From Emticicia agri (GTDB lineage Bacteria; Bacteroidota; Bacteroidia; Cytophagales; Spirosomataceae): a stretch of DNA of 64,000 nt. The translations under genes were made by a program, and so were the position numbers. The stretch lies in contig NZ_SEWF01000001.1 of the NCBI RefSeq assembly GCF_004168285.1, positions 1-64,000 of the forward strand. The letters run 5' to 3'. Positions within the stretch are counted from its first letter, which is position 1. Each line of letters opens with the position of its first letter. Shown one piece after another: positions 32,529 through 63,694 of the stretch. The notes below the pieces were generated by a model that did no database searches, was not told where the DNA came from, and worked only from the letters and a program-made list of their open reading frames with translations.

Positions 32529-34961
32529 TTACTCCGTTTTCAAAGATTTTACCGGATTCATCAGGGCTGCTTTGATGGATTGGAAACTGATGGTAACAAA
32601 GGCAATAAGAACGGCCATGATTCCGGCTAAAGCGAATATCCACCAGGCTATTTCAGTCTTATAGGCAAAATCCTGCAACCAACTGTGCATGAAATAATAC
32701 GCCACAGGCGATGCCACCAGCAAGGCAATCAGAACCAGTTTTAAAAGGTCTTTTGAAAGCAAAAGGATAATGCCGGGAACAGTAGCCCCTAAAACCTTGC
32801 GGATACCGATTTCTTTGGTACGTTGCTGAACAATATAGCTTACCAACCCTAATAAACCCATACAGGCAATCAGAATCCCTAAAAATGAGAATATCCAGAA
32901 TACCTGTTGAGAAACCTTTTCATTTCTGTATAATTCAGCCAAATCGGCATCTAAGAACGCATAATTAAAGGGTTGCTCAGGTAAGAACTTCTTCCAAGTC
33001 TGTTGCAATTGCCCTACCACCGACTGAAAGTCAGGTGTATTAATTCTCACACCTATCAAATTGCTTGTGCGGGCAAAAAAGCGGTCATTCACAATAAACA
33101 AAGGCGTAATTTTCTGATGCAACGAAGAAAAATGAAAATCTTTTACCACACCTACTATGGTATAAGTTACTTCCGGCCCATCGCCTTGAACAAAATTATC
33201 CGGGCTGAATATTTTCTGTCCGATAGGGTTCTTTAGCCTTAAAGCCTTAACAGCCTCCTGATTCAGAATGATTGACAATGAATCATTAAATTCTCTATTA
33301 AAAAATCTTCCCTCTGCTGTTTCCATATTCAGGGTTTGCAGATAACCTTCATCAGCAACCATACCCTTACCTGTTACGGTCTCTTTCTCTCCTCCCTTAC
33401 GGAAACTAATACCAAAGAAATTTTCCTGACCCGGTTCGGCACTTGTTCCGCCTACTTTTTCAACACCTGTAATTTTCTGTACTTCGTCTTTAAACACCTG
33501 TGTACGGTTGCCCAAAAAACCTGCTCCTCTTAAATGAATCACAAAATCTTTTGAGTAGCCTAATTCTTTGTTCTGAATATAATTCAATTGCCGATACACT
33601 ACCAGCGTACTGATAATGAGAATAATGGAAATAGAGAACTGAAAAACCACCAATCCGTTGCGCAAAGCATGACCTTGCTTTTTGGAAGTAAACTTGCCCT
33701 TTAATACCTGTATGGGTTGGAACGAAGATAAAACACCTGCCGGATACATACCAGCCATTAAGCCTACTGTTATTGATAAAATCAATAGTAATGGGATGGT
33801 TTTCCAGGTAAAAAAATTGTCTAATACCAGGGTTTTATTGGCCAGATTATTAAAGGATGGCAGTACCAAAACCACTATCAGGACAGCAACAAATAAACTT
33901 GTTACACTTAACAGGATAGATTCTGTCAGAAACTGAATAGATAACTGTGACTTGGTTGAGCCTAATGTTTTGCGGATACCTACTTCTTTGGCTCTTTCGG
34001 TTGAACGAGCCGTAGCTAAATTCATAAAATTGATGCAGGCAATCAACAACACAAAAACAGCAATCACCATAAAAATGTATACCAAATTCCTGCTCCCGTT
34101 AGCTCCTAACTCGGCTTCTAAATGAGACTCCAAATGAATACTTTGTAAGGGTTGCAGGAAATAAAAATAACCATTTCCTGCTTTCAGGTAATCATTAAAT
34201 GATACACCGAAAGTTCGTTGAACTTCGCCAGCGGCATATTTTTCAACAATAGCCGGAAATTTTGCCTGTACCTGCTCCGGTGAGGTATGAGGTTTTAATA
34301 ATAGATAAGTGGTGGCGGCAAAATTGATATGGTTGGTTGCCTCAGCAAAACGAATACCTTTGACTGAGTTTAAAAAATCGAACTGAAAATGGGCATTTTT
34401 GGGCATATCAGCACAAATACCTGTTACCTGCACTTTAGGTCCTTGAACAAATTCAAGGTATTTACCCATCGCATTGGTTGTTCCAAAATAACGTTTGGCT
34501 GTGCTTTCTGTTAATACAACAGTATTTGGGGCTAATAATGCTTTCTCCGGATTGCCATAAATCATTGGTAATTGAAATACCTTAAAGAAATTGGAGTCGG
34601 CAAACAGCACATTATTTTCTTCCAATATCTGATTATTATGTCTGATAAGCGTTCCACCACCATTATTAAAGATTCTGACAGTTTCTTCTACCTCAGGCAA
34701 CTCTTTTTTTACCGATTGGGCATACGAAGGTGGAATAATGGCATACTTGGTTGACCTTCCGGGATAAATTCTTTCCAGAGACATTCGGTAGACTCTATCG
34801 CCATTCTTCCAGAATTTATCATAACTCAATTCATCAAATACAAACATCAGAATCAGGATACAGGAAGCCATCCCTATTGAAAGACCTGTGATGTTAATGA
34901 GGGTTTGCAGTTTGTTTTTTAACAAACTACGCCAGGCAATTTTTAAGTAGTTACGTATCAT
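32529..34961 (-). CDS. ABC transporter permease P12 (duplicated MacB/FtsX type)
   Basis: An 810-aa inner-membrane permease. Architecture, shared by all twelve array members: MacB_PCD periplasmic domain, FtsX-type helices, then the same again, for about eight helices (here TM1 21-43, TM2-4 about 291-405, TM5 437-455, TM6-8 about 690-797). Each half carries a coupling-helix motif K-E-(V/I)-G-(I/V)-R-K, here RAKEVGIRKTLGS and QRTKEIGIRKVLGA, the surface expected to touch an ATPase. Both halves are thus in one chain, like a fused LolC/LolE pair. No ATPase is encoded nearby. This is the only member besides P1 with its own strong control region (35064-35171). The last residues, MNPVKSLKTE, are near-universal in the array. 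Substrate unknown. Confidence 0.93.
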   Translation of the reverse strand: MIRNYLKIAWRSLLKNKLQTLINITGLSIGMASCILILMFVFDELSYDKFWKNGDRVYRMSLERIYPGRSTKYAIIPPSYAQSVKKELPEVEETVRIFNNGGGTLIRHNNQILEENNVLFADSNFFKVFQLPMIYGNPEKALLAPNTVVLTESTAKRYFGTTNAMGKYLEFVQGPKVQVTGICADMPKNAHFQFDFLNSVKGIRFAEATNHINFAATTYLLLKPHTSPEQVQAKFPAIVEKYAAGEVQRTFGVSFNDYLKAGNGYFYFLQPLQSIHLESHLEAELGANGSRNLVYIFMVIAVFVLLIACINFMNLATARSTERAKEVGIRKTLGSTKSQLSIQFLTESILLSVTSLFVAVLIVVLVLPSFNNLANKTLVLDNFFTWKTIPLLLILSITVGLMAGMYPAGVLSSFQPIQVLKGKFTSKKQGHALRNGLVVFQFSISIILIISTLVVYRQLNYIQNKELGYSKDFVIHLRGAGFLGNRTQVFKDEVQKITGVEKVGGTSAEPGQENFFGISFRKGGEKETVTGKGMVADEGYLQTLNMETAEGRFFNREFNDSLSIILNQEAVKALRLKNPIGQKIFSPDNFVQGDGPEVTYTIVGVVKDFHFSSLHQKITPLFIVNDRFFARTSNLIGVRINTPDFQSVVGQLQQTWKKFLPEQPFNYAFLDADLAELYRNEKVSQQVFWIFSFLGILIACMGLLGLVSYIVQQRTKEIGIRKVLGATVPGIILLLSKDLLKLVLIALLVASPVAYYFMHSWLQDFAYKTEIAWWIFALAGIMAVLIAFVTISFQSIKAALMNPVKSLKTE

Positions 34962-35063
34962 AGCCCCTAACCCCTGAAGGGGTATTTAATAATAAAAAAT
35001 GGTTAAAATCTTAGAATAAAAGTTGGTGTGATTCAATCCGTAATTGTTTCATAAATATACTCC

Positions 35064-35171
35064 CTCAAAAAACATACCTAAACCAATAAACGGTTGACTA
35101 TCAATATATTACTTCAACACACAAAGTTATAATCCGTCCACAAGTGGACAATTTGTGTACGGCAGCGTACA
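35064..35171 (-). promoter_or_regulatory. Control region of P12: tandem palindromes plus sigma-54-like element
   Basis: Two palindromes, CGTCC...GGACA (35135-35150) and TGTACG...CGTACA (35156-35171), start 21 bp apart. Downstream on the minus strand is the block GTAATATATTGAT (about 35100-35112), then AGGTATG and TTGA forming GG-N10-GA (GG 35078-35077, GA 35066-35065). Every element lies at the same spacing, within 1-2 bp, as in the region before P1. The design fits enhancer-binding-protein sites upstream of a -24/-12 promoter, although the -12 is GA, not GC. Confidence 0.55.
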
Positions 35172-35228
35172 AGGGTATAGAGAAGAGAAAAAGGCTAATA
35201 CAAAAACGAAGATTATAAGGTAAAAAGA

Positions 35229-35268
35229 GAAAGGAACAGGGAAAAGTATACTTTTCCCTGTTCCTTTC
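35229..35268. terminator. 40-bp perfect palindrome after P11 (likely terminator)
   Basis: The axis lies between 35248 and 35249; arms GAAAGGAACAGGGAAAAGTA and TACTTTTCCCTGTTCCTTTC match at all 20 positions. On the minus strand it starts 12 nt after the P11 stop and is followed by CTCTTTTTA. It should end upstream transcription and insulate P12. Confidence 0.7.
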
Positions 35269-35280
35269 CCCTTTCTCTAC

Positions 35281-37674
35281 CTACTCTGACTTTAAAGATT
35301 GCACCGGATTCATTAATGCTGCTCTTATGGCCTGATACAATACTGTCAGCAATGCAATACTTATGGCCAGCACACCTGCCACTACAAATATACTTGCGCC
35401 AATATCTGTTTTATAGGCAAAGCCTTGCAGCCAGTTGTTCATAAAATAATAGGCAATCGGGAAGGCAATACCATTGGCAATTAAAACCAAACGGATAAAG
35501 TCTTTGGACAATAGCCCTACAATATTGCTTATGCTTGCACCCAATACTTTTCTGATACCAATTTCTTTCACTTTTTGCTCGGCGGTAAAGGTAATCAGGC
35601 CAAACAATCCCATACAGGCAATCAGAATAGCCACACCTGTAAAACCTGCAAAAAGGCTTCCCATGCGTTGTTCAGAGCGATACTGTTTGTTAAAGGCATC
35701 GTCTAAGAAATAATAATCAAAAGGCACATCTGCTTCATATTTTTCATAAACTTTTCCGATAGATGCCAGTTTTTGTTGCAGGTCTGCTTTAGGGTCTATC
35801 CTCAGATAAAGGGTACGTAGTTGGGTGGTATCTTTTACTACCATTAATAGCATACCATCTATTTTCTGCTGAAGAGAAGTAAAATTAAAGTCTTTGAGTA
35901 CCCCCACTATTTCTTTTCTTGTTCCTGCCAAATTCAGGTTCTGACCAATAGGTTTTTCAGTTATTTTCAGTTTTTCAACAGCCGTTTCGTTTATCACAAT
36001 TTTATCGTTGCCCAAAGCTAACTGTTCGATATTGGCAGGCTTCACTTTCCAGTCTAATTGCAGAATTTTCAGAAAACCTTCATCTACTTCCATATTATTG
36101 ATGCTTACATCTTCATTAGTAGTCGGGGTTTTAGTAAAATACATATTCCAACCTCCTGTAAACATAGATAATGACGAAGCACCTACCTGTTGAATACCTG
36201 CTTCACGTTTTAAATCCTGCCTTAGTGCTACGGTGTGTTTGCGGGCTTCACTTGAGAGCGGCAATACTAATACCTGCTCTTTATTCATCCCTATTTTTTT
36301 GGTTTGCAGGTAATTTAATTGCTTCTGCACCACCATACTACAAATAATCATGACAACCGATGCCATAAACTGAAATACAATAAAAACCCGACGAAGACTA
36401 ACACCATGATTACCTGAAGCAAACTTACCTTTCAGTACCTGTATAGGTGAAAATTTTGATAAAAGTAAAGCCGGATAACTACCTGCCACTAAAGCTGTAA
36501 AAATCAGTAAACCTAAAAGAATACTTAAAAACAACGGACTTGTAATAAAGGAGTCGTCAATATTCAGGTTAAGCAGATTGTAGAAAGGCTGTTTTAAAGT
36601 CTGAAACAAGAGCAAAGCCAGTATAAAAGAAATCAGGCTCACTATGATAGACTCTCCATAAAACTGTGTAGCCAGATGCTTACGGTTAGCTCCCAGCACT
36701 TTACGAACGCCCACTTCTTTTACTCTGACTGTAGCGCGTGCCGTTGTCAGGCTCATATAATTGATAAGCGCCAGAAGCAGTACAATTCCGGCAACAATCA
36801 AGAAAATAGAAACATATTTAGTATTCGAAAAATCACCCCAGTTATTGCCTAAATGGGTTTCCAGAAAAGGTAACAACAGATATGTTGAATGGGATGTAAG
36901 GCCATTATTCTCATCTTTGGTAAGTACCTTTGGGATAACTTTTTCAACTCGGGTAACCGACTCAGGTTTGTTGAGTAAGAAGTAGGTTTCATAGCTTCCT
37001 GTTCCTACTAAATCATCTGTCTCATACATTTGCCCTCTGTCACGTTTCATCAGGGCATCAAAGGTTGATAAGGAACCAATAAAATCGAAATCAAGGGTAG
37101 AATTGGTAGGTAGTTTTTTGAAAACCCCCGTAACCCTAAGCACATCTTTTTTATTATAAGTAATGGTTTTACCTACCGGGTCTGCATTACCAAAATACTT
37201 ACGGGCCATTTCTTCGTTAAGCACTACTGTATTAGGTTCAGACAAAACCGTTCCCTTATTACCTTGCAGAAGCTCTATGGAAAAAAGATTAAATAACGAA
37301 GGCTCAGAGAAATAGAATTTACGCTCAAAAAACTGATGATTTTCGTCAGATTTAATCACGAGGTCATTCTGAAAAGACTGGCTGATGCGTGCATAATCTA
37401 CTACTTCCGGGTTAGCCCGCTTCACGGCATTCCCAAAGTTTTTTGATACCAGATTAAACTGTACTTCATTAGAACCAAACTTCATTTTTATCAGCGTATG
37501 AAAAATATTTTCCCCTTTCTGATGGAATTTGTCATAGCTTAACTCATGCGACACATAGAGCAGAATCAACATACAAACGGCCATACCAATAGCCAGTCCT
37601 GCAATGTTGATAATACTGAAAATCTTGTTTTTCAGTAAGTTTCTGAAGGCGATTTTGATGTAGTTTTTAAGCAT
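35281..37674 (-). CDS. ABC transporter permease P11
   Basis: A 797-aa permease counted from MLKNYIKIAFRNLL (ATG 37674); the frame continues to 37752 through the intergenic repeat, but the paralogues all start at this M-(L/I)-(K/R)-N-Y motif. Coupling motifs are VRVKEVGVRKVLGANRKHL in the first half and QKVKEIGIRKVLGASISNI in the second, both canonical. Helix 1 is followed by VSHELSYDKFHQKG, the H/D-E-L-S-x-D-x-F-H box just outside the membrane. It ends MNPVQSLKSE. The gap to P10 holds a type-A repeat, and a 40-bp palindrome follows its stop. Confidence 0.93.
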   Translation of the reverse strand: MLKNYIKIAFRNLLKNKIFSIINIAGLAIGMAVCMLILLYVSHELSYDKFHQKGENIFHTLIKMKFGSNEVQFNLVSKNFGNAVKRANPEVVDYARISQSFQNDLVIKSDENHQFFERKFYFSEPSLFNLFSIELLQGNKGTVLSEPNTVVLNEEMARKYFGNADPVGKTITYNKKDVLRVTGVFKKLPTNSTLDFDFIGSLSTFDALMKRDRGQMYETDDLVGTGSYETYFLLNKPESVTRVEKVIPKVLTKDENNGLTSHSTYLLLPFLETHLGNNWGDFSNTKYVSIFLIVAGIVLLLALINYMSLTTARATVRVKEVGVRKVLGANRKHLATQFYGESIIVSLISFILALLLFQTLKQPFYNLLNLNIDDSFITSPLFLSILLGLLIFTALVAGSYPALLLSKFSPIQVLKGKFASGNHGVSLRRVFIVFQFMASVVMIICSMVVQKQLNYLQTKKIGMNKEQVLVLPLSSEARKHTVALRQDLKREAGIQQVGASSLSMFTGGWNMYFTKTPTTNEDVSINNMEVDEGFLKILQLDWKVKPANIEQLALGNDKIVINETAVEKLKITEKPIGQNLNLAGTRKEIVGVLKDFNFTSLQQKIDGMLLMVVKDTTQLRTLYLRIDPKADLQQKLASIGKVYEKYEADVPFDYYFLDDAFNKQYRSEQRMGSLFAGFTGVAILIACMGLFGLITFTAEQKVKEIGIRKVLGASISNIVGLLSKDFIRLVLIANGIAFPIAYYFMNNWLQGFAYKTDIGASIFVVAGVLAISIALLTVLYQAIRAALMNPVQSLKSE

Positions 37675-37679
37675 AGAAC

Positions 37680-37810
37680 TCCTAACCGTGCGACGGTCGC
37701 CCCTAAAGAGGGACTTTTTTAAAGTTAGAAAATATGTATCCTTTTCCCCCAATTGTAAATTCTTGCGTAAGCAACTCCCCTTTAGGGACGGTCCGCCGCG
37801 CGGCCGGGGG
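37680..37810. repeat. Type-A intergenic repeat, copy b (P10/P11 gap)
   Basis: Left arm altered by a GC islet (CCGTGCGACGGTCG before CCCCTAAAG); right arm TGCGTAAGCAACTCCCCTTT followed by a second islet, ACGGTCCGCCGCGCGGC, before CGGGGG. Both islets are absent from the simpler copy d. Confidence 0.75.
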
Positions 37811-37815
37811 CGCTT

Positions 37816-40251
37816 TTATTCACTTTTCAACGATTTCACCGGATTCATCAGGGCGGCCCTGATGGTTTGATAGCTGATGGTCAATAAAGCAATTGTTAAG
37901 GCTGTAATGCCTGCCAGGGCAAATACCCACCATTTAAGCTCAATATGATAGGCAAAATTCTGCAACCAGTTGTGCATAGCCCACCAGGCAAGCGGAAAGG
38001 CTACTACTGCTGCTATCAATACTAATTTTACAAAATCTTTAGTCAGAATGATAATAATGCTGCTGATACTTGCGCCTAATACCTTACGGATGCCCACTTC
38101 TTTGATACGTTGTTCGGCCGCATAGGTAGCCAGCCCAAATAAACCTAAACACGCAATCAGAATAGTCAAGATAGCTACAATCAGAAAGATGGTTTGTTGT
38201 ATCTGGTCTTGCTGATAAAATAGCTCCCATTGTTTGTCTAAAAAATGGTACTCAAACAAATGGTCGGCATCTATGCTATGCAGAATATTATTCATTTGCT
38301 TAAGCGTTTCAGCAATATTATCCGAATTAACTCTACTACTGAAATAGTCGATATTCTGAAACGGATTATTACGGAAACCCAACACCATAGGCGAAACCGA
38401 CTGGTGTAGAGACTGAAAGTTGAAATCCTTGACAATGCCTACTACTCTTACATTAAATGATTTATCTAACCTCTCAACACTACCCCCAAAATCAATGCTT
38501 GGGATTTCAATCACCTGGTCTGATACCTGTGTAATGCCTAATTGTTTGGCGGCAGTCTCGTTAATGATAACAGCCGTAGAGTCTCCATTACCGGCATTTG
38601 CAAAATTTCTTCCTTTTAGCAACTCTATATCGTAGGTTTTCAGAAACTGGTCATCAATCCCCAAAAAATACATATCTCTTCCCTCTAATGAAGTGATAGT
38701 TTCGTTTTTCACCCGCACTTTTACTAAGTTTTTCCACTCACCTGGCACACGTGAACTAACCGAAACCTCTTTTACCTGCGATAACTTGGCAAACTCTCTC
38801 TTGATGGTTTCGGCACCACGTCTTACTTTTCCGCTATTAATATCTACTATCACCAGTTGGTCTTTCTTAAAACCCATATCTTTGGTATCTACATACTTCA
38901 TTTGCAGATAGACAATAGTGGTAGCTATTATCATAAAAATAGACAATGAAAACTGGAATACAACCAATATACGACGAATTGAGAGGTTACTTTTGCCTAC
39001 ATTGATTTTATTTTTCAGTAATAAAATAGGCCTGATACGAGACTGAAACAAAGCCGGATATATGCCAGACATGAGACTGGCTACTATTACTACGATTACA
39101 ACACCTATCCAGATACGATAATCAGTATTAAAATTCAGCGTTAGTTCTTTATGCGTAAAATTATTGAAATAAGGCAATAGTGCCTGCACAAACAATAGGG
39201 CTATCAATAACGCCATAAGAGTAACCAGAAATGCCTCAGCAATAAACTGTTTAATCAGGTTTTCACGGGTTGCACCTGCTGTTTTGCGTACGCCTATTTC
39301 TCTGGCACGATTGGCAAATCTGGCAGTAGTCAGATTCATATAATTGATACAGGCAATAACTAATACAAAAACTGCGAGTATAGCAAATACATAAATATAG
39401 GTAAGGTTGCCTCCTGATGCTCCCTCAAAATCGTTTGAGTAAAAATGAATGTCTTTTATCGGCTGAAGCGAATAGGTATACTTGTCTTTTTCTTCCGGTG
39501 AGCGTTTAGATTTTATTAACTGGTTGAGTTTTGCCTCCAGATTGTTGGTTTCAGCTTTTTCATCAAGCAGAAAATAGGTAACGAAGCTATCAGAACTCCA
39601 GTCTGTTCTGACAAAATCACGGAAACGCTGCCCATTGATACTTGACTCTGAAAAAAGGAGATTGAATGAGATATGTGAATTGACAGGAATATCTTTCAGA
39701 ATGGCAGTAATGGTATAAGGAATCGAATCTCTGTCAACCTTGATGGCTTTTCCGATAACATTGGCCGTATTGAAATACTTCATAGCCGATTCTTCTGTCA
39801 GAACTACTGAATATGGCGCAGTTAAGGCTGTTTTTCTGTCTCCGGCTATCAGGTCAAAATCAAATATTTCTAAAAATTCATTACTCGCAAACGACAGGTC
39901 TTCGTAAAAAACATTGGTATTTTCAAGAGTACCTACATTGGTTCTGCCAGCACCTGTATATCTTGCTATTTTCTTAATTTCAGGAAAAGTAGTTTTTCCG
40001 GTTTCTGAAATCTGATAAGCAACGCTTGCTACTTTAGCCTCTTTGCCTTCGGCAGACACCTTTTTATTTACTACTCTGTAGATATTTGCAGCTTGCGAAT
40101 GAAAACTGTCAAAAGTCAGTTCATCAAAAATATATAAGGCAATCAGCAAAAAGCTGGTTAACCCAACTGTTAAACCAAAGATGTTAATAAAAGAGAACAC
40201 CTTATGTCTCATCAGATTTCTCCAGGCGATTTTAAAGTAGTTTTTAAGCAT
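37816..40251 (-). CDS. ABC transporter permease P10
   Basis: An 811-aa permease. The first coupling helix is the most deviant among the middle genes, NRAREIGVRKTAGATRENL (Arg for Lys before E, and TAG for VLG); the second, QRIKEVGIRKVLGASISSI, is standard. The IFDELTFDSFHSQA box follows helix 1. The first periplasmic domain carries YSVVLTEESAMKYFNTANVIG, matching the 'VVL-x-E-x-x-A-x-K-Y-F' strand of MacB_PCD. TM5 is VVFQFSLSIFMIIATTIVYLQ. It ends MNPVKSLKSE. It lies between two type-A repeats, the upstream one (toward P9) carrying the MITE. Confidence 0.93.
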   Translation of the reverse strand: MLKNYFKIAWRNLMRHKVFSFINIFGLTVGLTSFLLIALYIFDELTFDSFHSQAANIYRVVNKKVSAEGKEAKVASVAYQISETGKTTFPEIKKIARYTGAGRTNVGTLENTNVFYEDLSFASNEFLEIFDFDLIAGDRKTALTAPYSVVLTEESAMKYFNTANVIGKAIKVDRDSIPYTITAILKDIPVNSHISFNLLFSESSINGQRFRDFVRTDWSSDSFVTYFLLDEKAETNNLEAKLNQLIKSKRSPEEKDKYTYSLQPIKDIHFYSNDFEGASGGNLTYIYVFAILAVFVLVIACINYMNLTTARFANRAREIGVRKTAGATRENLIKQFIAEAFLVTLMALLIALLFVQALLPYFNNFTHKELTLNFNTDYRIWIGVVIVVIVASLMSGIYPALFQSRIRPILLLKNKINVGKSNLSIRRILVVFQFSLSIFMIIATTIVYLQMKYVDTKDMGFKKDQLVIVDINSGKVRRGAETIKREFAKLSQVKEVSVSSRVPGEWKNLVKVRVKNETITSLEGRDMYFLGIDDQFLKTYDIELLKGRNFANAGNGDSTAVIINETAAKQLGITQVSDQVIEIPSIDFGGSVERLDKSFNVRVVGIVKDFNFQSLHQSVSPMVLGFRNNPFQNIDYFSSRVNSDNIAETLKQMNNILHSIDADHLFEYHFLDKQWELFYQQDQIQQTIFLIVAILTILIACLGLFGLATYAAEQRIKEVGIRKVLGASISSIIIILTKDFVKLVLIAAVVAFPLAWWAMHNWLQNFAYHIELKWWVFALAGITALTIALLTISYQTIRAALMNPVKSLKSE

Positions 40252-40254
40252 AAA

Positions 40255-40611
40255 CCCCTAACCCCTAAAGGGGGACTTTTTTAAAGTTAGAGAATAGTTT
40301 TTTCATAATTCTTATCCGCCCTTTAAGCTATTTCGCACGAAAATTTGACTTTACAAATTTTCGTGCGTAAGCAACTCCCCTTTAGGCAGGCTTGATTGGT
40401 TCTAAAAAAAGTGAACAGAAAAATGTAAAACAGAAAAATGTAAAAGTTACTTTTTGCCAAATAATATCGCAGCGGCGCACCGTTCCAATTTTTACGGTTT
40501 ACTTTTACAGCAACGGCTGTCGCATTTTACATTTTACATTTTGCGGTTTTTCGATTAAAATTAGAACCAATCAAGCCTGCCCTTTAGGGGTCGGGCGGAC
40601 GCTGCGCGGGG
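40255..40611. repeat. Type-A intergenic repeat, copy c, split by a MITE (P9/P10 gap)
   Basis: Left arm ACCCCTAACCCCTAAAGGGG at 40255-40276, then the usual GACTTTTTTAAAGTTAG. The right arm begins GTGCGTAAGCAACTCCCCTT (about 40363), is broken at 40386 by the 193-bp insertion, and resumes at 40580 with the islet GGACGCTGCGCGGGGCG. Without the insertion it matches the other copies. Confidence 0.75.
40387..40579. mobile_element. 193-bp MITE with 19-bp perfect TIRs and 9-bp target duplication
   Basis: The left end CAGGCTTGATTGGTTCTAA is the exact reverse complement of the right end (40561-40579). CCCTTTAGG occurs immediately before (40378-40386) and after (40580-40588), while copies without the insertion have it once. 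The interior holds further inverted runs (AAAATGTAAAA left, TTTTACATTTT right) and a short GC-rich patch; no ORF is present. It is a non-autonomous element mobilised in trans by an unidentified transposase; a 9-bp duplication is typical of, but not exclusive to, IS4-type enzymes. Confidence 0.88.
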
Positions 40612-40616
40612 CGCTT

Positions 40617-43055: not shown

Positions 43056-43057
43056 AA

Positions 43058-43163
43058 TACCCCTAGCCCCTAAAGGGGGACTTTTTAAAGTTAGAAAATA
43101 TGTTTCCTTTTCTCCCTATTGTAAACTCGTGCGTAAGCAACTCCCCTTTAGGGGTCGGGGGTA
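43058..43163. repeat. Type-A intergenic repeat, copy d (P8/P9 gap; reference copy)
   Basis: The simplest copy. Left arm TACCCCTAGCCCC-TAAA-GGGGGAC, spacer beginning TTTTTAAAGTTAGAAAATAT, right arm CTCGTGCGTAAGCAACTCCC running into CTTTAGGGGTCGGGGGTAC. The two arms are inverted copies of one another, each itself a small hairpin (CCCCTAAAGGGG). Confidence 0.82.
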
Positions 43164-43166
43164 CTT

Positions 43167-45614: not shown

Positions 45615-45616
45615 AA

Positions 45617-45827: not shown

Positions 45828-45828
45828 G

Positions 45829-48482: not shown

Positions 48483-48539
48483 AAAGAACCCGTTAAAAGA
48501 AATTTTTCCGTTTTCCTTGCTCCGTTTTCCTTTCTCCAA

Positions 48540-50960: not shown

Positions 50961-50963
50961 AAT

Positions 50964-51103
50964 GTACCCCTAGCCCCTAAAGGGGGACTTTTTTAAAGTT
51001 AGATAATATACTTCTCGGCTCCAGTTGGTAATTCATAACCTGAGCAATTACTCATGCGAAAGCAATTCCCCTTTAGGGGTCGGGCGGACGCCGCGCGGGG
51101 CTC
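50964..51103. repeat. Type-A intergenic repeat, copy g (P5/P6 gap)
   Basis: Left arm TACCCCTAGCCCCTAAAGGG, spacer GACTTTTTTAAAGTTAGATA, right arm CTCATGCGAAAGCAATTCCC, then GGGCGGACGCCGCGCGGGGC islet. The sequence between the arms is unlike copy d. Confidence 0.78.
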
Positions 51104-51106
51104 CAA

Positions 51107-53527: not shown

Positions 53528-53529
53528 AA

Positions 53530-53665
53530 TACACCCCTAGCCCCTAAAGGGGGACTTTTTAAAAGTTTTACAATTTGTATTCTATTCCCCTTTAAATTGT
53601 ATTGCACGAAAAATCTATCTTAAAAACTTCTCATGCGTAAGCAACTACCCTTTAGAGTCGGGGGT
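53530..53665. repeat. Type-A intergenic repeat, copy h (P4/P5 gap)
   Basis: Left arm ACCCCTAGCCCCTAAAGGGG; right arm CTCATGCGTAAGCAACTACC then CTTTAGAGTCGGGGG, carrying substitutions (A for C in the CCCC run, A for G in GGGG), so it is a decaying copy. Confidence 0.75.
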
Positions 53666-53668
53666 CTT

Positions 53669-56080: not shown

Positions 56081-56093
56081 AGTAGTGGGTTAA

Positions 56094-56168
56094 AGGAAAA
56101 TGGAGAACGGAGAAAGAAACATACAAGCATAGATTTTACTTCCTCCGTGTTCCTTTCTCCTTTTTTCC
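56094..56168. repeat. Type-B intergenic sequence, imperfect hairpin (P3/P4 gap)
   Basis: A G/A-rich arm (GGAGAACGGAGAAAG, about 56102-56116) faces a C/T-rich arm (CTCCGTGTTCCTTTCTCC, 56143-56160). A related C/T-rich sequence CGTTTTCCTTTCTCC also lies just downstream of P6 and P12, and a looser form after P11. Confidence 0.45.
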
Positions 56169-56169
56169 G

Positions 56170-58599
56170 TTATTCTGTTTTTAATGATTTAACCGGATTT
56201 ACGAGTGCTGCCCTGATTGCCTGATAACCCACAGTAAGTAAGGCTACTACGATGGCACCTAAGCCTGACGCTGCAAAAATCCACCATGATATATCTACCT
56301 TGTACTCAAAGTTTTCTAACCATTGAGTCATCAGATAATAAGCAACCGGGCTTGCAATGGCAATTGAAATAAGCACTAATTTCAGGAAGTCTTTACTTAG
56401 CAATGCCGTGATACCTAATACGCCCGCGCCCAATACTTTTCTGATACCTACTTCTTTTGTCCGGTTTTCGGTAGTAAAAGTCGCTAATCCGAAAAGACCT
56501 AAGCAGGCAATCACAATAGCCCAGATAGATGAGGTAGTGAATATTCTGCTGTATTGCTGCTCGGTAAGGTATTGCTTATTGAAATTCTCGTTCACAAAGA
56601 AGTATTCATAAGGATTACCCGGAAAATTAGCTTTATAAATTTTTTCAAGGCTTGCGATTTTATCCTGCATTTTATCAGGCGTAAGTCTTACCGTAAAATA
56701 GACTGATGAGTTTTGTGGGTAGAAGATAATAGGGTCTATGGCCTTTTGTACTCCCTGATGGTGGTAGTTTTTTACTACCCCGATAATCTCTAATGGTCTT
56801 TCGTCCCACTGAATACGTTTGTTTACTGCTTCTTCTGCCGAAGCAAAACCTAAAGACTGTATGGCCTGTTCGTTAAGCAATATTTTGCTATTTTTATTCC
56901 ATTCCACATTACATTCGGCCGCAGTAAAGTTTCTGCCAGCTTTTAAATCAATCTCATAGGTTTTCAGGAATCGGTCTCCGATAAGGGCAAAAGAATAGGT
57001 TTTCAACTCGTCGTCGGGTTTTGATTTCGGTTGCGTAAACCCTGAGGTGGTGAAATTATACCAACCACTTGGAACACTACCTGAGGCACAATAGTCTTTT
57101 ACAAAACTTTGTTGTGAAAGGCCGTCAATAAAAGCCGTTTTACGTACCTTATAAGTACTATCCTGACCTACTTCAGGCCCTTTAATAACCAGTAACTGGT
57201 TGGTATTCATGCCTAAGTTTTTGTTTTGCATGAAGTGCAACTGGCGGTATATTAGAACCGTACCTAAAATAAGCATGATAGAAATACTGAACTGCGAAAC
57301 CACCAAGGCTTTGCGTAAGAATATCCCTTTCGATTGTTTGCCTAATTTTCCTTTCAGTGTTTCAATCGGATTGAAGTTTGATAAAACCAGGGCAGTTAAA
57401 GCCCCTGAAAGGATTGAACCGATAAGCAGTAAGCCTAAACCGACAATAGAAACCGACGAAAACTGAATAGTTTTAACAGATAATTCCTTACCAATCAGTT
57501 CATTGAATAAGGGTTGGAATGAATAGATGAAAAACATAGACAGCCCCAGACCCAATAAATTCACTAAGATTGACTCTCCTAAAAACTGTGCAATCAGGTT
57601 CATCTGGGTAGCACCTATTACTTTTCTAACTCCCACTTCATTGGCTCTTTTCAAAGAATTGGCTGTTGATAGGTTAATATAATTAAACCATGCAATCAGC
57701 AATATCAGGAAGGCAATACCACCCAGCATATATACGTATTTCAGATTGCCGGTTGTCTGATAATTATCATTCAAAGAGGAAGCTAAATGTACGTTACCTA
57801 ATGGTTGTAAACGAAACCGAATACCATCATTTTCTTTACCCAATTTTTTGCGCAAAGCAGATAGTTTGTTCTCAAATGTTTTGGGGTCAACACCATTATT
57901 AAGCTGGAAATAAGTATTGATGTATTGCGAATCAAGATTTGTCAGTAAAGCCCAGTCGTTGCCTTTCAGATAGCCAGGGTTTTTCATGGTTTCCAAGGAA
58001 AACACCATATCGTATCTGATGTCTGAATTATCAGACATATCGGCAAAAACTCCTTCAATGGTATGCGTTGACTGTCCGAACTGGTTATTTAAGGTGAGTA
58101 CCTGCCCCATTGGATTATCATTACCAAAATATTTTTTAGCAGTTGCTGCTGATAGAAAAACGGTGTTTGGTTTATTAAGCGCTTTGGCATCACCTATTAC
58201 TAAAGGAAAAGTGAAAAACTCAAAGAAATTCCCTTCTGCAAAGCCAATATTTGATTCACGGAAAGGTTCGCCATTGGTATTTGCTCTTTTTACTACTCCT
58301 TTAGATACACCTGACTCAAATCGGCAGAAATCTTTAATTTCAGGAAAATTTTCTTTGGCTTTCAATGCCCAACCGGGTTCTATTTCTGTCCAGGTTACCC
58401 CATGAATATCTTCATTCAGTAAACGATAGGTACTTGATAGGTTTTTATGAAAATGATTAACGCTTTTCTCCAGACTGATGTATTCCAGAATGAATAAAAA
58501 AGCAGTAATACCCATAGCCAAACCAACAATATTGATAAAGCTATACACCTTGTTACGAACAAGATTTCTAAAGGCGATTTTTAAATAATTGCGTATCAT
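56170..58599 (-). CDS. ABC transporter permease P3
   Basis: An 809-aa permease counted from MIRNYLKIAFRNLVRNKVY (ATG 58599); a GTG two codons earlier (58605) is not needed. It has the most altered box after helix 1, LEYISLEKSVNHFHKNLSST, with no D-E-L-S. The first coupling helix is LKRANEVGVRKVIGATQMNL, where Asn replaces Lys before E; the second is NRTKEVGIRKVLGAGVLGI. TM2 has LIAWFNYI like P8. Such substitutions on the ATPase-facing side may mark a changed partner. It ends VNPVKSLKTE. Confidence 0.92.
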   Translation of the reverse strand: MIRNYLKIAFRNLVRNKVYSFINIVGLAMGITAFLFILEYISLEKSVNHFHKNLSSTYRLLNEDIHGVTWTEIEPGWALKAKENFPEIKDFCRFESGVSKGVVKRANTNGEPFRESNIGFAEGNFFEFFTFPLVIGDAKALNKPNTVFLSAATAKKYFGNDNPMGQVLTLNNQFGQSTHTIEGVFADMSDNSDIRYDMVFSLETMKNPGYLKGNDWALLTNLDSQYINTYFQLNNGVDPKTFENKLSALRKKLGKENDGIRFRLQPLGNVHLASSLNDNYQTTGNLKYVYMLGGIAFLILLIAWFNYINLSTANSLKRANEVGVRKVIGATQMNLIAQFLGESILVNLLGLGLSMFFIYSFQPLFNELIGKELSVKTIQFSSVSIVGLGLLLIGSILSGALTALVLSNFNPIETLKGKLGKQSKGIFLRKALVVSQFSISIMLILGTVLIYRQLHFMQNKNLGMNTNQLLVIKGPEVGQDSTYKVRKTAFIDGLSQQSFVKDYCASGSVPSGWYNFTTSGFTQPKSKPDDELKTYSFALIGDRFLKTYEIDLKAGRNFTAAECNVEWNKNSKILLNEQAIQSLGFASAEEAVNKRIQWDERPLEIIGVVKNYHHQGVQKAIDPIIFYPQNSSVYFTVRLTPDKMQDKIASLEKIYKANFPGNPYEYFFVNENFNKQYLTEQQYSRIFTTSSIWAIVIACLGLFGLATFTTENRTKEVGIRKVLGAGVLGITALLSKDFLKLVLISIAIASPVAYYLMTQWLENFEYKVDISWWIFAASGLGAIVVALLTVGYQAIRAALVNPVKSLKTE

Positions 58600-58605
58600 A
58601 CACAC

Positions 58606-58736
58606 CCCTAGCCCCTAAAGGGGGACTTTTTTAAAAGTTAGAAAATATGCCCCAACCGCGCGACGGTCGCCCTAAAAGGGGAGTAAAAAATAAGATGCTA
58701 CTCATGCGAAAGAAGCTCCCCTTTAGGGGCGGGGGC
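58606..58736. repeat. Type-A intergenic repeat, copy j (P2/P3 gap)
   Basis: Left arm ACCCCTAGCCCCTAAAGGGG; a GC islet CAACCGCGCGACGGTCGCCC sits near 58653-58674; right arm CTCATGCGAAAGAAGCTCCC then CTTTAGGGGCGGGGGC. The islet here is in the middle, not at the right end as in copy b. Confidence 0.75.
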
Positions 58737-58738
58737 TT

Positions 58739-61132
58739 TTACTCCGTCTTTAATGATTTCACCGGATTTACCAATGCTGCTCTGATGGCCTGATAACTGA
58801 CAGTTAACAAAGCAATCAGTAAAGAAATAATAGCCGACCCGACAAATACCCACCAATGTACTTCTACTTTGTAGGCAAAGTTTTGTAGCCAGTTATTCAT
58901 TAAAACTATTGCTACTGGTATGGCTATTACTGCTGCTATGATTACCAGTTTTAAAAAATCTTTGTTCAATAAAAGGAAGATAGAAGTAATACTTGCGCCT
59001 AATACTTTTCTTACTCCGATTTCTTTCACCCTTTGTTGGGCAGTAAAGGCAGCCAGGCCGAATAATCCCAGACAAGCCAATAGCACAGAGATGAAAGCAA
59101 AATTGAGTGACAGAGTTCCCTGTTTTTGTTCTGCTTGGTATTGACGGGCAAAATTCTCATTCAGAAAATTGATTTCAATAGGGTTTATTTTGTCAAACTC
59201 ACGATACGTTTTTTCAATATGAGCTAATGCTTCTTTAGTTTTTGAAGTATTAATTTTCACATACAGATTATCTTCCATGCTTGCTTGTGGTGGCATAATC
59301 AATACTACAGGTTCTACTTTATGTTGTAAAGAATACGTATGAAAATCTTTAAATACACCTATTATTTTTCGTTCGACTGTAGTTTCATTATTAATTTTTA
59401 CCTGCATTCTTTTGCCTATTGGGTTCGAGAAACCTAATTGTTTCATCAAGGTCTCATTGATAAGTGCTGCATCGGTAATAGCACTTGGCTTATTCTCTGA
59501 AAAATTTTCACCCAACTTCATCTTAATATCCATTGTTGGTACAAATGAGGCATTTACCATCAGTTCTTGTACTACAGTAGAATTGGTAGAAATAGAGCCA
59601 TCTGACTTTTCAAAATAGTAAGGTATTTGACCCAGATTATTATTCCCAATCGGATTGCCCGCAGTTGCTACATTTTCTATCAGAGGGTTTTTCATTAATT
59701 GTTCTCTTAAAGCGGCAACTTTCGAGCGTAGATTTCTATCGTCAATGTGGATAGTTAGTACTTGTTGTCTATTGAAACCCAGGTCTTTGCTGGCTGAAAA
59801 CCTCAATTGCTGATAGATAATCCAAGCTCCGGCAATCAAAACCATAGTCGCTACAAATTGAAATACAACCAATGATTTCCTGAAAATAACGCTTTGATTC
59901 AAATTGCCAGAAAGACCCTTTAAGGCCAAAACAATTTTGAATCTCGAAATAAAGAAAGCCGGATAACTGCCACTCAAAAAACCAACAAACAAACTGAAAA
60001 GAGCGAAAGTAGCAATTGAATTACCAACACCAAATCTATCTATACTTAAAGATTTATCTGCTAATTGATTGAAAAAAGGAAGCAACGCAGTTATTAAAAA
60101 GACTGAAACAATGGAAGCGATGATACTAAGTGTAATTGCTTCAACAATGAACAAACCCATTAAATCGGTTTGAGTAGAGCCTATTGCCTTGCGTACACCT
60201 ACCTCACGGGTGCGTAAACCTGCTCTGGCAGTAGCCAGATTCATATAGTTGATAATAGCAATAATCAGTATCAAACCTGCCAATGCCATAAATAAATACA
60301 CACGGCTGATAGAGCTATTGGCGCTTACTTCGTATTGAAGATTAGAATGTAAATGAATATCAAGTAGTGGTTGCAGTTCCATTTTATAAGAAACTACAGG
60401 CATTTCTTTTAAAATAGTTTTTTGCGCAAAGGCAGGGAATTTTGCCTCTAATTTGCTTTTATCTACACCATCGCTCAAAAGCAAATAAGTATATAAATTA
60501 GAATCTTGCCAGCCTGCTGTAAAGTTAGTCGGCAATGAACGTAAGCCTTCAAATTGTAAATGTGAATTACTTGGGGTATCCTTTATGACACCCGTAACCT
60601 TATTGGTTACTGTTTTATCAAATACAACGCTCTGATTCAAAGCTTTCTGCGCATTACCAAATATTTTATTTGCCAACGATTCTGTAATAACAATGGTATT
60701 TGGCTCTGAAAGCGCCGTTTTTGGATTGCCTGCTACGAAAGGAAAGGTAAATACCTCAAAAGCATTTCTATCAGCGAAAAGAATATTACCTGCTTTAACA
60801 GTCTTATCTCTAAAAGTGATAACTCCCCCACCTTCGGGTGCAATTCTAACGGCCTCTTTTATCTCCGGAAATTCTGTTTTCAATGCCGGAGCAAAGGCTG
60901 CTGAGGTAACTGCATGATGTGCTTCTCCCCCTTCCCATTCGGCATGATGCACTAATCGAACTATATGGTCTCCTTTTGCATGAAAACTATCAAAACTTAA
61001 TTCATCAGCTACATATAAGGCAATCAGGCAAAAGACCGTAAAACCTACAGCCAAGCCCCCGATATTGATGAATGAATAAACCTTGTTTTTAACAAGATTA
61101 CGAATGGCGATTTTTAAATAGTTTCGTATCAT
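58739..61132 (-). CDS. ABC transporter permease P2
   Basis: A 797-aa permease. Box VADELSFDSFHAKGDHIVRL. The first coupling helix is LRTREVGVRKAIGSTQTDL, with Arg for Lys before E; the second, QRVKEIGVRKVLGASITSI, is canonical. The first periplasmic domain opens with a His/Glu-rich patch (HHAEWEGGEAHHAVTS, around residues 63-78), which could bind a metal; this is a possibility seen only here. TM5: VVFQFVATMVLIAGAWIIYQQ. It ends VNPVKSLKTE. It lies between type-A copies j and k. Confidence 0.93.
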   Translation of the reverse strand: MIRNYLKIAIRNLVKNKVYSFINIGGLAVGFTVFCLIALYVADELSFDSFHAKGDHIVRLVHHAEWEGGEAHHAVTSAAFAPALKTEFPEIKEAVRIAPEGGGVITFRDKTVKAGNILFADRNAFEVFTFPFVAGNPKTALSEPNTIVITESLANKIFGNAQKALNQSVVFDKTVTNKVTGVIKDTPSNSHLQFEGLRSLPTNFTAGWQDSNLYTYLLLSDGVDKSKLEAKFPAFAQKTILKEMPVVSYKMELQPLLDIHLHSNLQYEVSANSSISRVYLFMALAGLILIIAIINYMNLATARAGLRTREVGVRKAIGSTQTDLMGLFIVEAITLSIIASIVSVFLITALLPFFNQLADKSLSIDRFGVGNSIATFALFSLFVGFLSGSYPAFFISRFKIVLALKGLSGNLNQSVIFRKSLVVFQFVATMVLIAGAWIIYQQLRFSASKDLGFNRQQVLTIHIDDRNLRSKVAALREQLMKNPLIENVATAGNPIGNNNLGQIPYYFEKSDGSISTNSTVVQELMVNASFVPTMDIKMKLGENFSENKPSAITDAALINETLMKQLGFSNPIGKRMQVKINNETTVERKIIGVFKDFHTYSLQHKVEPVVLIMPPQASMEDNLYVKINTSKTKEALAHIEKTYREFDKINPIEINFLNENFARQYQAEQKQGTLSLNFAFISVLLACLGLFGLAAFTAQQRVKEIGVRKVLGASITSIFLLLNKDFLKLVIIAAVIAIPVAIVLMNNWLQNFAYKVEVHWWVFVGSAIISLLIALLTVSYQAIRAALVNPVKSLKTE

Positions 61133-61135
61133 ATG

Positions 61136-61262
61136 ACCCCTAACCCCTAAAGGGGGATTTTTTTAAAGTGTAGATAATACTTTGCTCAACTCCCTATTTG
61201 CTTACCATTTATGCACATATTAAACTCGTGCGTAAGCAATTCCCCTTTAGGGGTTAGGGGTA
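61136..61262. repeat. Type-A intergenic repeat, copy k (P1/P2 gap)
   Basis: Left arm ACCCCTAACCCCTAAAGGGG, spacer GATTTTTTTAAAGTGTAGAT, right arm CTCGTGCGTAAGCAATTCCC then CTTTAGGGGTTAGGGGTA, without a GC islet. Because its right arm ends TTAGGGG, the two arms are a nearly perfect inverted pair here. Confidence 0.8.
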
Positions 61263-61264
61263 TT

Positions 61265-63658
61265 TTACTCACTCCTCAACGATTTCATCGGGTTCATCAA
61301 AGCGGCTTTGATTACCTGATAGCCTACTGTTAAAGCGGCAACCACAAACGTTGAAGCAATAGCTAATATAAATACGTCGATTTTGATCTCAATCTTGAAC
61401 TTAAAATCCTGTAGCCAGCTATTCATTAACCACCAGGCAAGTGGTGCGGCTACTAAAAAAGCAATCATAATCAGGCGGGAAAACTCTTTTCCGAAAATCC
61501 AGATAATACTGCCAATGCTGCTGCCTAATACTTTTCTGATACCTATTTCTTTGGTTTTTTGTGTAACCATAAAAGAAACCAGCCCATACAAACCTAAACA
61601 ACCAATGAAAATAGCAATACCTGAAAAAGCCTGTATCAGTTTAAGCATAATGCTTTCGGTTTCGTAAAACTCAGCAATGCTTTCATCTAAAAACTGGTAC
61701 TCATAAATCTGGTCAGGGTGTGCTTGTGTCCATATCTTTTCTACCGAAGCAAGCGTTGCCTGAGCATTGGCCATATTCAGTTTGAGTCCGTAACTATCAT
61801 AATTTTCAGCTAATGTAGTAATACAAACCGGGTTAATTTCTTCATGGAAAGAGCGGTCATGAAAATCTTTCACCACACCTACAATCGGCCCGCTACTATT
61901 ACCGCCATTCATTGATACATTTTTACCGATAACTTCCTGTGGGGATTTGAGGTTAAGCTTGCGAACAAATGTTTCATTTACCAGACATTCTCTCATACTA
62001 TCGGCAGGAAAAATATTTCTTCCTGCTACTAATTCGAGGTCAAAGGTTGAAAGATATTGTTCATCTGCTGATTTTACATTTACTCTGAACACCTCGTCTT
62101 CGGCACGATTGTCGAATTTTACTGAAGTACTCCAGTTTGAATTTGAAGCAGGTGCTCTGAAAAATAAAGAAGTCTTTTCAACCCCACTTAAAGCCGCAAA
62201 CTGATTTTTAAGTGTTTTTTGCTTATTCAAATCTGTACCTGAAGCTATCGGAACAGTAACAATGGCATCTTTCTGAAAACCAAGGTCTGACTGTTGCGCG
62301 TATTTCATCTGATTGGCAATAATCACCATGCCGATAATCAATACCTGAGAAATAGCAAACTGGGTAATAATAAGTGTACGTCGTGTGTTAAAACCACCTA
62401 CATTTTGTTGAGATAGTTTTCCTTTAAGAGCGAGAACAGGCTGAAACCCGGCCAATATAAGACCGGGATAAGACCCAGAAAATAAAGTAACTACTACAAT
62501 TAATGAGACAATGAAAAGCATTAGCTGCCAATCACTGACCAGATTAATACTGATTTGAGAACTGAACCAGGTGTTTACGTATGGCAGAGCCACATAAGCT
62601 AATAGAATAGCAACCATAGCCCCAAGAATGCTTATCAGACTTGTTTCAGAGATAAATTGCCAGAAAAGCTGCATTCTTACACTACCCAATACTTTTCTTA
62701 CACCTACTTCTTTCGAACGTTTTAATGCCTGTGCCGTAGCCAGATTAATGAAATTAACACAAGCAGTAATAATCAGGAATAATCCGATAAATGACAATAC
62801 CCAGAGATTTTTCTTATCCATAGGGCCGCTATAACGGGCATCGAAGTGCATTTCAGCCAATGGCTGGAATTTATAATGGTGTACGTTTTTGGATGTTGGA
62901 CGATATTTTTTTACATAAGCAGGCATCACTTTTTCAACCTGTGCAGGCGATATACCCGGACGAAGCAAGACAAAGCATTGCATCGAACTGAAAATACCTC
63001 CCCATGAATCATCGCTGGCAGCCCATTCATTATAAGATTTTAAAGTAGGATAAGAAGTATAGATTTCTGTTCTTCTGTCAGTATTGGCAGGCAGGTCTTT
63101 TAATATACCTGTAACTTTAAACTCAATGCGGTTATCTAATTTAAAAGTTTTGTTAATCGGATTTTCATCGCCAAAGTATTTTTTAGCAGCTTTTTCAGTC
63201 ATGATTGCCGTATTAGGTTCGCTCAAGACTGTTTTTTTGTCGCCTTGTAAAAGTGGATAGTTAAAGATTTCAAAAAATTCGGGTTCTGTGAAAGCTACGC
63301 CCTCTTCATCTTTAAATTTCTTGATTTCGTTGCCTTGTTTTACTGTAATCAACTGATCGTCGAAAGTACAGATTCGTGCCACTTTTTCACCAAAAGTATA
63401 ATCATTCCTGAATGCTTTGCCCAGTGGATTAGGTACACTGAAACTATAGCTGATGTTATCTCGGTGTTGCTCTGTAACGATGCGATAAATACGGTCAGAA
63501 TTGTTGTGGAAATTGTCGAAGCTCAGGTGGTGTTTTACCAATGCGAAAATAAGGATTCCGCAACTCATACTTAAGGCTAACCCCAAAACATTAATTGAAG
63601 CATAAACTTTATTTCGTTGCAGATTCCTTATTGCGATTTTTAAATAGTTCTTCAACAT
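61265..63658 (-). CDS. ABC transporter permease P1 (first gene of the array)
   Basis: A 797-aa permease and the promoter-proximal member. It is divergent in the box after helix 1 (LVKHHLSFDNFHNNS) and ends MNPMKSLRSE rather than SLKTE. Coupling helices LKRSKEVGVRKVLGSVRMQL and QKTKEIGIRKVLGSSIGSI. TM5 region: IITQFAISQVLIIGMVIIANQ. The second half lacks the K-D-F of most members (IFGKEFSRLIM). It lies 37 nt downstream of a sigma-54-like element (63695-63710). If the array is co-transcribed, it starts here. Confidence 0.93.
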   Translation of the reverse strand: MLKNYLKIAIRNLQRNKVYASINVLGLALSMSCGILIFALVKHHLSFDNFHNNSDRIYRIVTEQHRDNISYSFSVPNPLGKAFRNDYTFGEKVARICTFDDQLITVKQGNEIKKFKDEEGVAFTEPEFFEIFNYPLLQGDKKTVLSEPNTAIMTEKAAKKYFGDENPINKTFKLDNRIEFKVTGILKDLPANTDRRTEIYTSYPTLKSYNEWAASDDSWGGIFSSMQCFVLLRPGISPAQVEKVMPAYVKKYRPTSKNVHHYKFQPLAEMHFDARYSGPMDKKNLWVLSFIGLFLIITACVNFINLATAQALKRSKEVGVRKVLGSVRMQLFWQFISETSLISILGAMVAILLAYVALPYVNTWFSSQISINLVSDWQLMLFIVSLIVVVTLFSGSYPGLILAGFQPVLALKGKLSQQNVGGFNTRRTLIITQFAISQVLIIGMVIIANQMKYAQQSDLGFQKDAIVTVPIASGTDLNKQKTLKNQFAALSGVEKTSLFFRAPASNSNWSTSVKFDNRAEDEVFRVNVKSADEQYLSTFDLELVAGRNIFPADSMRECLVNETFVRKLNLKSPQEVIGKNVSMNGGNSSGPIVGVVKDFHDRSFHEEINPVCITTLAENYDSYGLKLNMANAQATLASVEKIWTQAHPDQIYEYQFLDESIAEFYETESIMLKLIQAFSGIAIFIGCLGLYGLVSFMVTQKTKEIGIRKVLGSSIGSIIWIFGKEFSRLIMIAFLVAAPLAWWLMNSWLQDFKFKIEIKIDVFILAIASTFVVAALTVGYQVIKAALMNPMKSLRSE

Positions 63659-63694
63659 AGCTTTTTCATAATTTTGTATTATACATTCTAATTA

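Follow-up and report, generated by a model that had tools for sequence, protein, structure and literature searches.

The question raised by this locus is how a long row of transport permeases is powered. In a 64,000-nucleotide stretch of the Emticicia agri genome (positions 1 to 64,000 of contig NZ_SEWF01000001.1, here C1; hereafter the window), twelve consecutive open reading frames (ORFs) of 796-823 amino acids, P1 to P12, lie on the minus strand at 32,529-63,658, each encoding a duplicated FtsX/MacB-type permease of the ATP-binding cassette (ABC) type. A preliminary description of the window had taken these to be twelve tandem permeases with neither ATPase nor adaptor, and had proposed that a single ATPase supplied in trans was shared by many of them. 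As set out below, the array runs past the window to an ATPase and an adaptor and, judged from genome sequences, quite probably supplies the permeases of a tripartite exporter, modular and under sigma54 control, akin to the MacAB-TolC and darobactin (Dar) systems, in which exchangeable permeases would share one engine.

The core of the system

The array continues as P13-P21 on the same strand to C1:90,129, giving 21 permeases in total; the figure of twelve is right for the window, the edge of which cuts the array. Directly upstream of P21 lies the gene for a 225-aa ABC ATPase, A1 (C1:90,285-90,962), which is the best PF00005 match in the genome (9.4e-37), and directly upstream of A1 is that of a 416-aa HlyD-type adaptor (C1:91,019-92,269). 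Divergent from the adaptor gene stands a gene for a 450-aa sigma54-dependent response regulator. The statement that the array lacks an ATPase and an adaptor was, therefore, mistaken. Moreover, an ATPase gene adjoining the array just outside the window had been named in advance as the observation that would count against the proposal, and this is what is found. A1 adjoins the head of the array and so is encoded in cis to it, not in trans. The other part of the proposal, that one ATPase may serve many permeases, is well supported by the genomics, because of permease rows without an ATPase, cores without a permease, a common promoter block and the pattern of co-occurrence, each of which is described below.

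The adaptor passes the cut-off of the RND_mfp family TIGR01730 (145.1 vs 94.9 bits) and A1 stays below that of LolD (TIGR02211; 223.7 vs 307.75 bits); the best NCBIfam matches of both are darobactin-export subunits, below cut-off. A1 is identical in sequence to the A1 of Emticicia sp. BO119, and its motifs are canonical, LSGGQQQR and GNLD being present in all 79 aligned sequences. On contig C24, behind a promoter block at C24:55,511, a second ATPase, A2, is encoded together with a TolC-like outer-membrane efflux protein (PF02321, 3e-49). A2 carries LSGGQQQL in 33 of 33 sequences, with the D-loop aspartate replaced by His (29) or Gln (4); in the A2 of two related genomes, G011 and G015, Asn stands in its place. 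In a FastTree analysis of selected sequences, from which the G015 A2 (C1:3,772,657 of that genome) was left out, A2 forms its own clade beside A1. Within a set of 18 genomes, A2 of this kind is present in all ten that have an A1 of at least 70% identity; both ATPases are absent from six genomes with no ATPase above 48% identity (G006, G009, G010, G013, G016 and G017).

Two further observations concern the ATPases and regulators of the genome. At C28:50,178-59,925 (L167) lies a separate MacAB-TolC-like locus with an HlyD protein, a TolC-like protein, a canonical ATPase, two half-size permeases, a sigma54 regulator and a histidine kinase, upstream of which the promoter profile described below gives a weak match (2e-4). 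A second protein with a sigma54 DNA-binding domain (C30:23,124 in the E. agri genome, G000, and counterparts) occurs in G000, G001, G003 and G011, and a single such protein in G006, G009, G010, G015, G018 and G023.

A common promoter block

The promoter block consists of two palindromes, TGTMCG-N4-CGGACA, one of which is often degenerate, spaced about 22 bp apart and followed by a TGGCAY-N5-TTG site that is varied in some cases. The -12 element often reads TTTGT instead of the TTGC of the sigma54 consensus. The distance from palindrome to -24 element is 52-55 bp in 11 of 12 sites and 64 bp in that on contig C36. The features of a sigma54 regulon are present in the sequence: a -24/-12 site, upstream palindromes, an enhancer-binding regulator and RpoN in the genome. 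The shared control logic that the preliminary description had attributed to the array fits these sigma54-like promoters with their tandem palindromes.

The block heads the adaptor-ATPase operon, P13, P12, P1 and eight unlinked permease loci. Of 45 upstream regions scanned for it, 12 score 37.8-45 and the rest 26-32, save that of the regulator gene, where a score of 41.0 comes from the adaptor's palindromes being read in reverse, at a spacing of 89 bp. When a -24/-12 site alone was sought before each array gene, the result was clear only before the adaptor (20 of 25), the runners-up of 19 at P14 and P15 lying inside coding sequence, and the signal emerged once the palindromes were included. The genome holds 42 double permeases, 21 in the array and 21 elsewhere, of which one, on contig C14, is split; half-size permeases (C7, C9:22,083, C22, C28, C43 and C71) are left out of this count. 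By position, that is, counting contiguous same-strand genes downstream, the block covers 36 of the 42.

A sequence-only profile, R1, was built from the 12 E. agri sites. As these had been picked for their position upstream of permeases, independent evidence comes only from a new site in the same genome and from other genomes, which played no part in building R1. Among the best 150 candidates scored in E. agri there are 13 strong sites (E <= 3.1e-14), the 12 used for training and one new, at C24:55,511, and it was by this match that the promoter led to the missing outer-membrane partner. A weak match at C30:15,995 (E 0.0036) has no core or permease gene recognised there. In other genomes all 51 matches at E <= 1e-8 (every row from those genomes at this threshold, with neighbours taken from mapped loci or from the coordinates of permease and ATPase matches) precede permease, PadR-permease, adaptor-ATPase or A2-TolC genes, and in four of the 51 another gene stands before the A2-TolC pair. 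The adaptor and the TolC-like partner would, by virtue of this common block, be under common control, and the placing of core and outer channel under the same genetic switch suggests one export machine common to dozens of permeases.

The four loci in which another gene precedes the A2-TolC pair behind the same block are L209 (G008), L211 (G004), L214 (G007) and L212 (G005). In G008 and G004 the gene encodes a DUF5916 protein of 825-826 aa (Pfam); the position is taken by an 859-aa ORF in G007 and by two ORFs in G005.

Co-occurrence and architecture in related genomes

Across 156 genomes of the order, with up to 18 ATPase and 5 ADOP candidates scored per genome, an A1 at E <= 1e-103 is accompanied by ADOP-type permeases in 52 of 52 genomes, 44 of which have at least four. 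Where the best A1 lies between 1e-84 and 1e-103 (21 genomes), 7 have no such permease, 9 have one, 2 have two to four and 3 at least five. Of the 83 genomes in which A1 is missing at 1e-84, 14 hold such permeases, one in 13 of them and three in the last, and 69 hold none. The association is strong by Fisher's test (p 7e-27; 44/8 vs 3/101), in which kinship is ignored. In the same genus, G006, G009 and G010 lack a close A1 (the best is 45% identical) and give a single weak ADOP match apiece (~1e-32); although they have RpoN, R1 finds nothing there better than 0.015.

The order at the head of the locus, with the regulator divergent from a promoter followed by adaptor, A1 and permeases, is kept in G000 and in six same-genus genomes in which A1 is linked to an array, G001-G004, G007 and G008. 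The comparison of array sizes that had been proposed at the outset gives rows of 6 to 26 permeases in the stretches read: 21 in G000, 26 in G001, 25 in G002, 14 in G003, 15 in G004, 7 in G007 and 6 in G008. This linkage of A1 and adaptor to the array in all seven same-genus genomes mapped could be taken to mean that A1 is used strictly in cis, serving only its own transcription unit (P14-P21, or perhaps the whole array), with the unlinked permeases using the MacB-like ATPase of C28, LolD or no ATPase at all. Other type VII ATPases in the genome, one of them near the permeases on C9, would fit such an arrangement. We nevertheless consider it unlikely, since there are arrays with no ATPase in the stretches read. 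In G011 these stretches contain 12 permeases in one row and in G015 two rows, the first of 14 and the second of about 12, two of which are split, and neither genome shows an ATPase or adaptor there; the adaptor and A1 of each genome lie elsewhere, as does one permease. Moreover, LolD-like ATPases are present in the genus members that lack A1, and those genomes show no more than one weak ADOP match each.

The converse, a core free of permeases, is seen in Chitinophaga. Among A1-orthologue loci from named genomes (the best 80 of 418), 19 have adaptor, permeases, A2 and TolC in one run; most of these come from Chitinophaga, and in most a regulator and a histidine kinase are encoded divergently. 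Four further Chitinophaga loci (L111, L124, L125 and L146) have a core of adaptor, A1, A2 and TolC without a permease, and their genomes (G018-G021) carry 14, 12, 9 and 10 double permeases, respectively, on other contigs, with no ATPase matching A1 at E <= 1e-50 within ~33 kb. All 14 listed permeases of G018, the L111 genome, were tested for the promoter block against 900 dinucleotide shuffles of 600-700-base stretches: the core and 11 of the 14 permeases carry it above the shuffle maximum, L227 (32.5) and L228 (31.5) are borderline and L225 is negative. For L229 the result became positive only with a scan of the complete fetched stretch, since the region first used apparently started inside the gene. 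In each of the genomes tested for it, G011, G015 and G018, the block is common to the distant permeases and the core, which argues further against strict cis use.

Evidence against a single shared engine

Several observations weigh against the notion of one engine for all of the permeases. No block is seen for six of the 42 E. agri permeases (C1:250k, C2:221k, C53, C8, C5 and C101), no histidine kinase gene stands beside the regulator in this genome, and the permeases on C9 have, ~1.5 kb away and beyond an opposite-strand gene, an ATPase that is paired with a half-size permease of its own; at the other unlinked permease loci there is no PF00005 match within the stretches read. Three R1 matches in G014 (1.8e-8 to 7e-6) and one in G008 (3.1e-5) have no recognised permease or core gene downstream, one of these four preceding an ATPase-like ORF. 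In G015 two permeases are followed by A2 behind one promoter block, in a shared operon, and a PadR-permease unit is divergent from a locus of the C28 type. A single permease stands beside an ATPase, with no adaptor recognised nearby, in G012 and G014. To these may be added, from the wider survey, the neglect of kinship, the seven of 21 genomes with an intermediate A1 that have no permeases and the 14 genomes lacking A1 (at 1e-84) that hold one to three. Because genomes without A1 contain permeases, and because of the adaptor-less pairs in G012 and G014, some members are taken to use other ATPases.

Permease structure and evolution

Each of the ten permeases scanned against Pfam (P1-P8, P11 and P12) has two FtsX and two MacB_PCD stretches, and none has an ABC_tran match. 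An FtsX-type membrane domain, a large periplasmic domain and a coupling helix, the features of the type VII ABC superfamily, are all present. The preliminary description had held both coupling-helix motifs to be recognisable in every gene; a strict pattern recovers the pair in 11 of the 12 window genes, the first half of P10 deviating with RANEVGVRK. It had also held that no gene was visibly broken, which holds for all 21 array genes, whose reading frames are uninterrupted. Foldseek matches the AlphaFold model of P7 to the structures of YbbAP, MacB, LolCDE and BceAB.

The presence of BceAB in this list, the interspersed two-component genes and the membership of FtsEX and BceAB among type VII proteins would all accord with permeases that act as mechanotransmitters or envelope sensors of the FtsX or Bce kind, with TolC and the adaptor serving only some of them. 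It is improbable that this holds for the array as a whole, since the promoter block also heads the TolC-like gene and since 19 of the 80 loci described above combine TolC with adaptor, ATPase and permeases in one run, although single permeases may still have non-transport roles.

Array genes have best paralogues within the genome of 31-65% identity. In G001, reciprocal and collinear orthologues of 19 of the 21 are 81-97% identical, and in G002 20 of the 21 have orthologues of 84-97% identity. For the 19 G001 pairs omega is 0.019-0.071 per gene, with 0.045-0.052 for the periplasmic parts; these values are rough because synonymous divergence (dS) is high, at 0.64-1.75 against G001 and not computable for 8 of 13 G003 pairs. 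The periplasmic parts are, therefore, under purifying selection between species, and no positive selection on them was seen. The 21 paralogues are on average 25-26% identical to one another in the periplasmic parts, against 38-39% in the membrane segments of the middle and 53-54% in those at either end, with domain borders set by eye before the P7 model was made and in rough agreement with it. The suggestion that differing periplasmic domains give diversity fits the divergence between paralogues, and finds no counterpart in diversifying selection. A recent tandem amplification of a selfish or neutral kind, its copies mostly redundant, might be read from the head-to-tail order and the repeated intergenic elements; it is ruled out as a recent event by the orthology and is highly improbable in general, contradicted as it is by the conservation of orthologues far above that of paralogues and by the low omega in all 19 pairs.

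The intergenic element is a hairpin with ends CCCCTAAAGGGG / CCCCTTTAGGGGNTAGGGG, which fills many of the permease gaps, for example 43,056-43,166, 50,961-51,106 and 61,133-61,264 on the minus strand. In 12 of the array's 21 upstream gaps the start codon follows its right end by 2-6 nt, and there are 38 copies in the genome at no more than one mismatch, 15 of them in the array. Of three gaps folded, two beat all 200 shuffles and the third beat 196.

Relation to known systems

The closest named family is ADOP (TIGR03434), the top NCBIfam family for all ten permeases scanned (P1-P10). As in that family the permeases are duplicated and full-length, and in seven of the ten the top aligned stretch spans model positions 5-6 to 802-803 of 803, the match of P2, P5 and P7 being broken into two or three stretches. 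The scores, at 265-309 bits, are far under the curated cut-off of 622.3, which is reached by none of P1-P10 and in none of 18 genomes. The 'orphan' in the family name means that no ATPase is nearby; the head of this array has both an ATPase and an adaptor. Unlike ADOP as it is usually conceived, a core engine and a common promoter are proposed here for permeases otherwise called orphan. A Dyadobacter description (PMC11573002) counts the RAST-annotated copies at 28 and 33 and gives them as 'of unknown function'.

PadR-prefix variants (NF038404) of ADOP are found among the unlinked members. At six unlinked loci (C2:197k, C52, C9, C36, C53 and C14) a similar gene of ~110-130 aa lies directly upstream of the permease; that of C52, the only one scanned, is over the Pfam PadR cut-off and under that of TIGR03433, and permease prefix domain 2 (NF038404) is over cut-off in both prefix-bearing permeases scanned (C52 and C36). 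At C14:46,786-49,484 (L043) the permease downstream of the PadR-like gene consists of two overlapping ORFs (739 and 174 aa), either because the copy is inactivated or because of a sequencing error.

The darobactin exporter (DarB, DarC and DarD; NF038008, NF038010 and NF038007) supplies the best match of A1 and of the adaptor and the second best of ten permeases. All three matches are under cut-off (286 of 375, 195 of 450 and 96-182 of 700 bits), and darobactin clusters have one permease, unlike the dozens found here. MacAB-TolC shares with the present system an adaptor, a TolC-like duct and MacB_PCD and FtsX domains, with MacB among the Foldseek matches. It differs in that here the ATPase is separate (225 aa), the permease is a fused duplicate and there are many permeases per engine. 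MacAB-TolC is a type VII ABC exporter (background in PMC5985334). LolCDE is set apart by the LolD score of A1 given above. YbbAP is the best structural match of P7 (9ge7, E 1.1e-18; also 9ge6), at a TM-score of only 0.41-0.45 and with marginal permease matches to the YbbP family, and we know of no shared permease bank for it (PMC12646458 describes the system); the permease chain of the matched structure too has ~800 residues. As a concept, the sharing of one ATPase has precedents among importers, for which no homology is claimed. Group II energy-coupling factor (ECF) transporters share an ATPase among several specificity modules. One ATPase for several membrane modules is also described for the MsmK importers (PMC4519317).

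Type VII exporters, ADOP permeases and shared ATPases in importers are, then, already known. In the literature searched, which covered few subscription papers, no account was found of an exporter whose single engine serves dozens of permeases within one sigma54-like regulon.

Features of the window

The array features of the window are collected in Table 1. The array has a single interruption, between P12 and P13, where the plus strand at C1:63,955-67,186 carries an unassigned ORF and genes for a histidine kinase, a response regulator of the LytTR type and a META-domain protein; the start of this insertion falls inside the window. Related kinases occur at the same position in G001 and G002, and none was recognised there in G003.

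Table 1. Permease genes and promoter blocks of the array (window positions unless a contig is named).
Feature	Position	Strand	Description
P1	32529..34961	-	810-aa duplicated FtsX/MacB-type permease, own promoter block
P1 promoter block	35058..35171	-	two palindromes, 55 bp, -24/-12-like site; R1 E 3.1e-14
P2	35281..37752	-	823-aa permease, TTG start as listed
P3	37816..40251	-	811-aa permease
P4	40617..43055	-	812-aa permease
P5	43167..45614	-	815-aa permease
P6	45829..48219	-	796-aa permease
P7	48540..50960	-	806-aa permease, predicted structure pLDDT 86.3, pTM 0.82
P8	51107..53527	-	806-aa permease
P9	53669..56080	-	803-aa permease
P10	56170..58605	-	811-aa permease, GTG start as listed
P11	58739..61132	-	797-aa permease
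P12	61265..63658	-	797-aa permease, first gene of inferred P12-P2 transcription unit
P12 promoter block	63688..63799	-	two palindromes, 53 bp, -24/-12-like site; R1 E 2.1e-18
Rest of system (P13-P21, ATPase, adaptor, regulator)	C1:67,355-93,991		beyond window

A proposed mechanism

In the modular exporter that we favour, the engine would be encoded once, as A1 and the HlyD-type adaptor at the head of the array and as A2 and the TolC-like protein on C24. An envelope signal would activate the sigma54 regulator, presumably the NtrC-type response regulator beside the core, which would turn on core and permeases together through the tandem palindromes and the -24/-12 promoters of the predicted operons. 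The permeases, some forty fused chains of which 21 are in the array and the rest scattered, would then alternate on the engine and compete for a limited number of engines. Each would bind the shared ATPase or ATPases through its two conserved coupling helices, while its own periplasmic domains face a particular substrate or partner. As with MacB, the substrate would pass from the periplasm or the membrane into the shared duct of adaptor and TolC. Analogy with exporters of the MacB type (PMC5985334) would allow a guess at peptides, lipids or other envelope-active compounds as substrates.

A more specific form of this model is tentative, and we put its chances at somewhat less than even: a plug-and-play exporter with an asymmetric engine, in which an A1-A2 heterodimer sits on the two unlike halves of the permease and is shared by the forty or so permeases. 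The conserved asymmetry of A1 and A2 is what would be expected, on this hypothesis, of a heterodimer on a fused permease with unlike halves. The two halves would dock A1 and A2, such that the whole permease bank would compete for one engine.

Dozens of 'orphan' duplicated permeases per Bacteroidota genome are annotated with no stated power source, as for example in Dyadobacter (PMC11573002). The missing ATPases, the adaptor, the regulator and the channel of the outer membrane now each have candidates, and the promoter signature assigns unlinked genes to the system. The question of whether one ABC engine drives many exchangeable permeases is thereby made directly testable. If true, the plug-and-play exporter would be the export counterpart of the shared-module logic of the ECF transporters.

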